From contig NZ_CP025113.1 in the NCBI RefSeq assembly GCF_002831585.1, forward strand, positions 4,789,001 through 4,853,000: a DNA stretch of 64,000 bases. The letters are read 5' to 3'. The translations under genes were made by a program, and so were the position numbers. Below, piece by piece: positions 29,166-31,850 of the stretch; the first letter of the stretch is position 1, and the number at the start of each line of letters is the position of its first letter. This DNA is from Bradyrhizobium sp. SK17 (lineage in GTDB: Bacteria > Pseudomonadota > Alphaproteobacteria > Rhizobiales > Xanthobacteraceae). The notes below the pieces were generated by a model. That model was not told where the DNA came from, searched no databases, and worked only from the letters and a program-made list of their open reading frames with translations.

Positions 29166-29480
29166 TCAGCCGACCAGCTTCAGCCCGACGATGCCGGACA
29201 CGATCAGCCCGATGCTGGCAAGCCGCATCGCGGAGGCGGGTTCGCCGAGCAGGATGATGCCGAGCGCCGCGGTGCCGACCGCGCCGATCCCGGTCCAGAC
29301 CGCATAAGCGGTTCCGATCGGCAGCGTCTTCAACGCCAACCCAAGCAGCAGGATGCTGCCGGCCATCGCCGCAAGCGTCAGCACCGACGGCACCAGCCGC
29401 GAGAAACCTTCAGTGTATTTCAGCCCGATCGCCCAGCCGATCTCGAGCAGGCCGGCGGCGAACAGAATGGCCCAAGCCAT
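29166..29480 (-). CDS. gdx: Guanidinium exporter Gdx (SMR family, SugE type)
   Basis: A 104-residue four-helix small multidrug resistance protein, nearly identical in pattern to E. coli SugE/Gdx. It has the conserved Glu13 in [18 protein letters not shown] and the SugE-specific [17 protein letters not shown]. The longer ORF (to 29789) is not real; ATG 29480 has GGAGGG upstream. The guanidine-II riboswitch in the leader (29500-29547) settles the function as guanidinium export rather than broad drug efflux. It works as a dual-topology dimer exchanging guanidinium for protons. Confidence 0.94.
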
Positions 29481-29499
29481 AGCGGACCCTCCAGATATG

Positions 29500-29547
29500 G
29501 CAGGGTCGTCCCCGCGGATGGGATTGGTGAGGTGAAGGTCGTCCTTC
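29500..29547 (-). promoter_or_regulatory. Guanidine-II (mini-ykkC) riboswitch
   Basis: On the minus strand two short hairpins with ACGA tetraloops stand 18 nt apart: GAAGG-ACGA-CCTTC (29547-29534) and GCGGGG-ACGA-CCCTGC (29515-29500, one G-U pair). Paired ACGR-loop hairpins are the defining structure of the guanidine-II riboswitch. The ribosome site GGAGGG and the gdx ATG follow within 19 nt, so control is probably translational, with ligand dimerising the loops and freeing the ribosome site. Confidence 0.92.
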
Positions 29548-29637
29548 CAGTGGCTATATGGGGGTGGTGCGGCCATTCCGCATTGCGACAAAACGCCCTT
29601 GATTGCGCCCGTTTTCCCTGCCAAACGCTGCCCCGCC

Positions 29638-31257
29638 ATGTCCGATACCGCAGTCACCACCGAATCGCCGTCCCGCTCGCCGCTTTCCGAGGAAGTGGCG
29701 CGACGGCGCACCTTTGCGATCATCTCGCACCCGGACGCCGGCAAGACCACGCTGACGGAAAAGCTGCTGCTGTTCGGCGGCGCCATCAACCTCGCGGGTC
29801 AGGTCAAGGCCAAGGGTGAACGGCGCAACACCCGCTCGGACTGGATGAAGATCGAGCGCGAGCGCGGCATCTCGGTGGTCACCTCGGTGATGACCTTCGA
29901 GTTCAACGAACTGGTGTTCAACCTGCTGGACACGCCGGGCCACGAGGACTTCTCGGAAGATACCTATCGCACGCTGACCGCGGTCGATTCCGCGGTGATG
30001 GTGATCGACGCCGCCAAGGGCATCGAGGCGCGCACGCGAAAGCTGTTCGAGGTGTGCCGGCTGCGCGACATCCCGATCATCACCTTCATCAACAAGATGG
30101 ACCGCGAGAGCCGCGACACGTTCGAACTCCTGGACGAGATCGAGAAGACGCTGGCGCTCGACACCACGCCGATGACCTGGCCGGTCGGCCGCGGCCGGGA
30201 TTTCCTCGGCACCTACGACGTCGTCAATGGCGGCGTCCGGCTGCTCGAGGGCGGCGGCGCCAAGACCGGCGCCACCGAGCAGATCGACATTGCCGATCTC
30301 GGCAAGCGCAATCCCAATCTCGACGTCGCCGAAGTCAAGGACGAGCTGGCGCTGGCCTCCGAAGCCTGCAAGCCGTTCGAGCTCGCGGCGTTCCGCGAAG
30401 GTCATCTGACGCCGGTCTATTTCGGCAGCGCGCTGCGCAATTTCGGCGTCGGCGACCTGCTGGAAGGTCTCGGCAAGTTTGCGCCGGCGCCGCGCGCGCA
30501 GGATTCCGATCTGCGCAAGGTCGAGGCCGCCGAACCGCGCATGAGTGCCTTCGTGTTCAAGATCCAGGCCAACATGGATCCGAACCATCGCGACCGCATC
30601 GCGTTTGCCCGGCTGTGCTCGGGCAAGCTGAGCCGCGGCATGAAGGCCAAGCTGGTGCGCACCGGCAAGAACATGAGCCTGTCGAGCCCGCAATTCTTCT
30701 TCGCCCAGGATCGCTCGGTGGCCGACGAGGCATTCGCCGGCGACGTCGTCGGCATTCCGAACCACGGCACGCTGCGGATCGGCGACACGCTCACCGAGGG
30801 CGAGGATCTGACCTTCGTCGGCGTGCCGAGCTTCGCACCGGAAATCGTCCGTCGCGTCCGCCTGACCGATGCGATGAAGGCGAAGAAACTGAAGGAAGCC
30901 TTGCAGCAGATGTCGGAGGAGGGCGTCGTGCAGGTGTTCCGCCCGCGTGACGGTGCGCCGGCGCTGGTCGGCGTGGTCGGTCCGTTGCAGCTCGACGTGC
31001 TGAAGGCGCGGCTCGATGCGGAATATTCCTTGCCGGTCGAGTTCGAAATCTCGGAGTTCTCGCTGGCGCGCTGGATCTCGTCCGACGACCGCAAGAAGCT
31101 CGATGCTTTCGTGGCCGCCAACAATTCCGGCATCGCCGACGACGTCGACGGCGATCCGGTGTTCATGGCCAAGAACGAGTTCTATCTCGGCTACACCCGC
31201 GAGCGCGCCGAGGGCATCATCTTCTCCAACGTCAAGGACGTGAAGAAGAAGGCGTAG
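29638..31257 (+). CDS. prfC: Peptide chain release factor 3
   Basis: A 539-residue translational GTPase. It carries SHPDAGKTT (P-loop), the RF3-typical [20 protein letters not shown] switch I region, [16 protein letters not shown] (G3) and NKMDRESRD (G4, with the RF3-specific continuation). The C-terminal domain segment [26 protein letters not shown] also fits. RF3 recycles RF1/RF2 after termination. ATG 29638 is chosen over an upstream TTG because the extension has no family counterpart. It is divergent from gdx, so the two share a 157-bp promoter region that includes the riboswitch leader. Confidence 0.95.
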
Positions 31258-31273
31258 TTGCCGCTGCTCCGCT

Positions 31274-31850
31274 GTCGTCCCCCGGCTCGACCGGGGGACC
31301 CGGTACGCCGCGGCTTCTCCGTCTTCGACCGTCTCTGGAATACTGGATCGCCCGGTCGAGCCGGGCGAAGACAGTGGGGGCGTGGCGAGAAGGCTCGCGA
31401 ACGAGCGTCGTGCCGCATACTCAGTGTCGTCCCCCGACCTGACCGGGGGACCCGGTACGCCGCGGCTTCTCCGTCTTCACGACCGTCTCTGGAATACTGG
31501 ATCGCCCGGTCGAGCCGGGCGAAGACAGTGGGGGCGTGGCGAGAAGGCTCGCGAACGAGCGTCGTGCCACATACTCAGCGTCGTCCCCGGTTCGACCGGG
31601 GGACCCGGTACGCCGCGGCTTCTCCGTCTTCACGACCCTCTCTGGAATACTGGATCGCCCGGTCGAGCCGGGCGATGACAGTGGGGGCGTGGCGAGAAGG
31701 CTCGCGAACGAGCGTCGTGCCGCATACTCAGTGTCGTCCCCCGACCTGACTGGGGGACCCGGTACGCCGCGGCTTCTCCGTTCGATCACCGCCGTCTCTG
31801 GAATGCTGGATCGCCGGGCTAAAACATCGAGCCGGGCGATGACGGCGAGG
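31274..31850. repeat. Tandem array of a 152-154-bp unit (three full copies plus a partial fourth)
   Basis: Units begin with TGTCGTCCCC near 31275, 31427, 31581 and 31733. Each has a 100-bp REP-like element (GACCGGGGGACCCGGTACG, then CTGGAATACTGGATCGCC and GCCCGGTCGAGCCGGGCG, ending GA[AT]GACA) and a 53-bp spacer containing GAGAAGGCTCGCGAACGAGC. The copies differ at only a few positions. The same 100-bp element occurs singly at 47746-47850 and 55061-55165. Spurious ORFs run through the array in several frames. It fills the 690-bp gap between prfC and the next gene. Confidence 0.9.

Follow-up and report, generated by a model that had tools for sequence, protein, structure and literature searches.

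The leader of gdx in Bradyrhizobium sp. SK17 is supported by sequence as a guanidine-II (mini-ykkC) riboswitch, a further case of an established class, and it probably acts as a translational ON switch in which the loop and 3' strand of its second hairpin (P2) serve as the OFF partner of the ribosome-binding site. The match between the ribosome site and the aptamer motif is the only part of this description that goes past routine annotation. Through it, comparison of leaders bears on the choice of strand that covers the ribosome-binding site, a point on which the published platform models of guanidine-II, in the passages available, disagree (linker, P0, or P2; PMC9094411, PMC9300104, PMC9561414, PMC5486947). 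The element also extends predicted riboswitch control of guanidine export to a genus of bacteria from soil and root nodules, in which it keeps a constant position on the chromosome next to prfC (peptide chain release factor 3). The features below are numbered within the window, by which we mean the whole 64-kb stretch of SK17 DNA that was analyzed.

29501-29550, minus: match to Rfam Guanidine-II (RF01068), 31.3 bits (cut-off 32), full model length aligned
29534-29547, minus: hairpin P1, GAAGG-ACGA-CCUUC, five pairs, falling where the RF01068 alignment has P1; the ACGA loop is putatively guanidine-binding, and loop plus 3' strand are in principle able to pair with the ribosome site as well
29516-29533, minus: linker between P1 and P2, 18 nt, without unusual Shine–Dalgarno complementarity
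29500-29515, minus: hairpin P2, GCGGGG-ACGA-CCCUGC, six pairs, the fourth from the loop a conserved G.U; loop plus 3' strand are the proposed anti-Shine–Dalgarno
29485-29507, minus: proposed OFF hairpin, GACCCU-g-CCA-UAUC-UGG-AGGGUC, which recruits two P2 loop bases, G and A, and covers the Shine–Dalgarno
29487-29492, minus: Shine–Dalgarno GGAGGG, 6 nt ahead of the AUG
29480-29478, minus: gdx start codon AUG
29166-29480, minus: gdx (sugE), 104-aa SMR protein, predicted guanidinium exporter (NCBIfam, Pfam, structure alignment)
29638..31257, plus: prfC, divergent neighbor (NF001964; start codon chosen in the analysis)

The gdx product is supported, by profile and structure alignment, as an SMR Gdx (SugE) guanidinium exporter, with transport predicted. 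As originally predicted, the hairpins stand before a minus-strand gene of SugE type: the protein scores 145.9 bits against the NCBIfam SugE/Gdx profile NF008512 (cut-off 126), with the next-best NCBIfam profile at 76.3 bits (cut-off 200), and matches Pfam PF00893. Its best solved relative is 6wk5 (107.8 bits; best EmrE chain 39.9), titled SMR family multidrug resistance protein in the PDB, which we take to be the guanidinium exporter Gdx-Clo. The two proteins are from different species but are alike over residues 1-102, and E13, W16, S42, and W62 are all in place in this alignment, so that the earlier reading of Glu13 and Gdx-specific residues was correct. Among named Gdx proteins, that of B. 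tropiciagri is nearest, at 97% identity. W16 is described as retained in Gdx and as Gly or Ala in Qac, in the part of the source available (PMC7695847).

The product of prfC scores 720.7 bits against NF001964 (NCBIfam cut-off 473). The original prediction placed the riboswitch in a leader shared with this gene; the 157-nt intergenic region is indeed common to gdx and prfC, but gdx alone has the element in its RNA leader, and prfC is not in the riboswitch transcript. Directly 5' of P1 lies CATAT (29556-29560, minus), kept in 15/15 aligned sequences picked from 130 divergent gdx/prfC loci. This may be a -10 element, in which case the gdx mRNA may start at P1; a scan for the sigma-70 consensus gave no promoter match. 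Directly after prfC (31273-31815), a 153-bp unit is present in 3.5 tandem copies with 93% matches.

Guanidine-II elements are widespread in Bradyrhizobium, chiefly before gdx. The SK17 genome (8.29 Mb, two contigs) contains two RF01068 matches, that in the window and another of 42.9 bits. Across the genus, 121 matches were found in 104/146 genomes (E <= 0.001, strict filters), and 97/146 genomes have a match over the cut-off. When all 121 matched places (31 + 90 loci) were assessed, 105 matches were linked to gdx (for 100 of them prfC was likewise linked within the stretch retrieved), and the remaining 16 adjoined UAAP1 of a carboxylase cluster. Among the 105 gdx-linked matches, 96 exceed the cut-off and nine fall below it, the window copy being one of the nine. 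A Gdx relative is present in 140/146 genomes (E <= 1e-15). The 36 genomes with a Gdx relative and no match were searched again under laxer conditions, with six Gdx-less genomes left out: nine matched at E <= 0.001 (eight over the cut-off), each directly before the Gdx match; 19 matched at E <= 0.1, a level at which 4/14 control genomes also match; and 17 had no RF01068 match even at E 0.1. In the order as a whole, 111/397 genomes and 39/141 genera have a match.

The comparisons below use 106 distinct gdx leaders of the genus, obtained from 135 loci (105 RF01068 matches and 30 best Gdx matches, partly overlapping), with the loci of the laxer search kept out. In a collection of 118 loci with a Gdx match, 78 leaders have two recognizable hairpins and 40 do not. 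Two leaders (L205 and L209) were considered as single-hairpin variants and rejected, as reading 100 nt reveals a further ACGA hairpin upstream across a long linker. These appear to be guanidine-II elements ~100 nt before gdx, with a ~50-nt linker that contains a hairpin of its own by eye; the 48-position Rfam model may miss long-linker elements such as these. On plasmid p187_1 of Bradyrhizobium sp. 187 (L305), gdx has a guanidine-II-like leader with a changed stem base next to the P2 loop.

The ribosome site AGGGUCGU is a complement of the GGACGRCC motif; in the usual form, ACGACCCU of P2 pairs with AGGGUCGU, a stretch whose last base is one base short of the AUG. Between the P2 loop plus 3' strand and the ribosome site, the best contiguous run has a median of 8 pairs in the 106 leaders, with at least 6 pairs in 93 and at least 7 in 70; the run reaches shuffle p <= 0.05 in 74/106 for P2 vs. 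0/106 for the linker, these leaders being related and the counts, like those of haplotypes, not independent. By duplex energy against shuffled query segments in 68 ribosome-site haplotypes, P2 is significant in 39, the 5' flank in four, and the linker in none. Against controls in which random bases replace only the 6 nt adjoining the start codon on its 5' side, 40/68 P2-plus-site haplotypes reach p <= 0.05, with 3.4 expected. A fixed-P2 measure gave at least 6 pairs in 95/106 genus leaders vs. 0/20 motif-less gdx leaders of other taxa, a loose control because these taxa differ from the genus; the 20 are leaders without GACG(A/C/G)CC, and 60/80 named loci were left out for having two hairpins or at least one such motif. 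The ribosome site is thus matched to the aptamer motif and to neither linker nor flank, a result that does not in itself choose between the two hairpins.

P1, or P1 and P2 alternately, might instead be the OFF partner, as the ribosome site complements a motif common to both; we regard this as unlikely, if the most credible of the alternatives. The loop plus 3' strand of P1 reach p <= 0.05 in 47/68 haplotypes (39/68 for P2), the P1 duplex is the stronger in 49/68 (P2 in 18, equal in one), and mean energies are -13.4 kcal/mol for P1 and -12.5 for P2. P1 fits the site as well as or better than P2 because both hairpins share GGACGRCC, and an initial view of P2 as the specific anti-Shine–Dalgarno by complementarity alone was dropped on this control. 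The P2 assignment therefore rests on nearness and predicted folds, by which P2 is the likelier partner: P2 lies nearer to the site, and in minimum free energy (MFE) predictions it is the main partner of the Shine–Dalgarno in 46/68 haplotypes, that of the window included, against 14 for P1, five for the linker, and one each for the 5' flank, another segment, and an unpaired site. The P1 loop is, moreover, ACGG in 55/106 leaders, a poorer match to UCGU than ACGA.

For the window itself, pairing of the ribosome site gives p 0.03 with P1 and is borderline with P2 in all tests (p 0.05, 0.06, 0.06, 0.11, and 0.055); a spacer-only shuffle gives p 0.32. The isolated OFF hairpin (29478-29507) has a predicted energy of -12.8 kcal/mol (z -3.17), with 2/200 shuffles as stable, whereas the stability of the whole 91-nt leader is not unusual (z -0.49). 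The predicted MFE structure of the leader contains the OFF hairpin and lies 2.8 kcal/mol below the fold in which P2 is forced. In one of five leaders folded both ways (L009), P2 is formed in the MFE structure. The complementarity of the ribosome site to the aptamer hairpins, together with folds that favor P2, suggests that the OFF state is a helix between an aptamer strand and the Shine–Dalgarno, with P2 the most likely strand.

A platform of the type proposed for Escherichia coli sugE, where the P1–P2 linker is the anti-Shine–Dalgarno and is withdrawn by kissing of the hairpins (PMC9094411, PMC9300104, in the passages available), shares its aptamer and gene with the window. In the window, CCUC and AUCC of the linker allow 4-nt pairings with GAGG and GGAG/GGGU, and the linker is the main partner in the five predicted folds noted above. 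Its complementarity exceeds that of shuffled linkers in 0/106 leaders and 0/68 haplotypes, in a test that ran without a positive control, the enterobacterial sugE leader (L304) being outside the 30 representatives described below; we hold such a platform to be very unlikely here.

For Pseudomonas aeruginosa, a P0 helix formed by the 5' and 3' flanks of the same aptamer has been proposed to hide the Shine–Dalgarno; guanidine-dependent translation initiation was shown in vitro, and switching ON in vitro failed when the putative P0 was mutated (PMC9561414, in the text available). An equivalent in Bradyrhizobium, with sequence 5' of P1 pairing with the ribosome-binding site or start codon, finds some favor in the MFE structure of the window, where AGCCA before P1 pairs with UGGCU at the start codon. 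The 4/68 haplotypes in which the 5' flank pairs with the ribosome site above shuffles are, however, close to chance, and the window has p 0.56; we hold a P0 helix to be very unlikely, slightly more so than a linker platform.

The suggestion made for Gloeobacter violaceus, of a stem-loop that overlaps P2 and the ribosome-binding site and excludes the folded riboswitch (PMC5486947), follows the same principle as the proposed OFF hairpin of Bradyrhizobium. It concerns one sequence, with comparative support absent from the passages available, whereas the Bradyrhizobium proposal draws on 106 distinct leaders, in which P1 is also able to pair.

With P2 as the OFF partner, the switch would operate as follows. 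Without guanidine, the P2 loop plus 3' strand (GACCCU in the window; ACGACCCU in most relatives) would be base-paired to AGGGUC(GU) within the ribosome-binding site, forming a helix that buries the Shine–Dalgarno and prevents P2 from forming. As guanidinium accumulates, P1 and P2 would form and engage each other through a kissing contact of their ACGA loops that encloses two guanidinium ions, a mechanism taken from papers on the family; kissing would withdraw the P2 strand from the ribosome site, allowing Gdx to be translated and guanidinium to be exported. Ligand binding, switching, and export by the window system are all inferred.

The fourth P2 pair is G.U in 101/106 leaders. In the predicted OFF hairpin, the A of AGGG has the U of this pair as its partner. 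Because this U would pair with the Shine–Dalgarno A as well, the wobble may be a requirement of the switch, as its conservation suggests. An A-U pair takes its place in three leaders (L093, L094, and L099), which have CGUCCC before the AUG. In these three and in L243, P2 belongs to another sequence class, and by eye its GGGACG can pair with CGUCCC/CGUCCU of the ribosome site in a different register.

More tentatively, and with rather less confidence than we place in the switch of the window, guanidine-II in Bradyrhizobium may have no separate expression platform. The ribosome site would complement GGACGRCC, so that the ligand hairpin itself is the anti-Shine–Dalgarno (P2 by position, with P1 a possible second partner) and the OFF state buries the very loop bases that contact guanidine; the P2 G.U would be kept because its U must pair with the Shine–Dalgarno A; and, with the carboxylase cluster, one metabolite would be sensed by three elements of two classes, at the levels of transcription and translation.

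Outside the genus, complementarity between aptamer and ribosome site appears weak and scattered. Thirty representatives of all leaders, three of them from Bradyrhizobium, gave 3/30 at 0.05 for P2 (L041, L157, and L223; Fisher p 0.015), 5/30 for P1 (p 0.002), 2/27 for the 5' flank (p 0.07), and 0/30 for the linker (p 0.51), and swap tests over the same set gave p 0.08 (P2), 0.09 (P1), and 0.86 (linker). Because this signal is weak, a P2 platform is not claimed for the whole class.

The class assignment that underlies the proposed P2 switch is supported in several ways. The original prediction described two ACGA hairpins, 18 nt apart, with five and six pairs and one G-U, and these counts are right. 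Like members of RF01068, the window element consists of two hairpins whose ACGR loops are each closed by GG/CC, has a linker of at least 13 nt and an adjoining ribosome-binding site of gdx/sugE, and lies upstream of a guanidine exporter gene; it differs in scoring 0.7 bit under the gathering score and in a P1 of only five pairs. The original prediction proposed the Rfam model as a check: a scan of the whole window at the gathering level was empty, because the gathering score of RF01068 is 32 and the window copy has 31.3 bits (E 9.9e-5 in 301 bases, in a local E-value scan). A score under the threshold, which that prediction had listed as refuting it, was in the strict sense obtained for this copy. 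As 32 bits is a curated reporting threshold and no biological feature, the element is still filed under RF01068, and the orthologs, most of which pass the threshold and in which P1 covaries, outweigh the shortfall. In the 106 leaders, P1 pairs 3-6 show 6, 17, 3, and 4 both-side changes, with 92–100% still paired; P2 is nearly invariant within the genus and so tells little about covariation there. Both P1 and P2 vary with pairing kept in 57 further leaders taken beyond Bradyrhizobium or on its fringe, nearly all of other genera. P1 loops are ACGG in 55, ACGA in 49, and ACGC in two of the 106 leaders, and P2 loops are ACGA in 100, ACGG in five, and ACGC in one; most of these leaders were found through the RF01068 model, so the loops are in part guaranteed by the way the leaders were collected, which applies less to the stem covariation and to the ribosome site, the latter wholly outside the model. 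The leaders with ACGC for ACGR in one loop (L081 and L150 in P1, L104 in P2) are otherwise normal. Near-threshold score, genus-wide position before gdx, P1 covariation, and Gdx residues together uphold the predicted guanidine-II identity.

The sub-threshold score might instead reflect a riboswitch in decay: outer P1 pairs would be gone from the window copy, with gdx by now either constitutive or silent. The outer pairs are broken in the RF01068 alignment, P1 is down to five pairs, a relative (L126) has a damaged P1, and several genomes of the genus have only weak matches at gdx. Yet GG-ACGA-CC is intact in both window hairpins, and near relatives with an equally short P1 (L098 and L109) score over the cut-off (33.2 and 32.6 bits); decay is about as improbable as a linker platform.

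The 64-kb window has a single match to the two-motif pattern GGACGRCC-N10-40-GGACGRCC; the narrower GGACGACC-N15-22-GGGACGACCC has no match in the window because the spacing allowed is too short. That two GC-rich hairpins came to stand before gdx by mere chance, in a window itself rich in GC, is hardly conceivable: the wider pattern does recur in 4/100 dinucleotide shuffles of the window, and this bare pattern is not overwhelming, but conservation of the element before gdx across the genus and P1 covariation refute chance and settle the guanidine-II identity.

The second guanidine-II element of the SK17 genome lies outside the window (G000:C1:202742-202790(-), 42.9 bits; L032), between an ABC ATPase gene and UAAP1–UAAP2–urea carboxylase (TIGR03425, TIGR03424, and TIGR02712). 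Ahead of the first gene of this cluster, which encodes an NMT1-like binding protein, stands a guanidine-I riboswitch (94.2 bits, C1:205561-205671(-); L303). Judging from these riboswitches and from literature on such genes, the carboxylase presumably acts on guanidine. The original description of a full guanidine-sensing and export module in the window is fair, with function predicted, and the genome adds to it this cluster with guanidine riboswitches of its own. SK17 may meet free guanidine in soil, as originally suggested. By title or abstract start, a literature search found no description of a guanidine-II or other guanidine riboswitch in Bradyrhizobium nor, among the matches listed, of both guanidine classes in one operon. 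A review of tandem riboswitches states, in the part available, that no tandem arrangement has been reported for any guanidine class (PMC9481103); the Bradyrhizobium pair lies in one gene cluster and not in one leader, and so does not conflict with this. By comparison of coordinates, guanidine-I and guanidine-II are paired ~2.8 kb apart on one strand in 16/146 genomes of the genus, and these 16 guanidine-II elements are the 16 genus matches that lie away from gdx.
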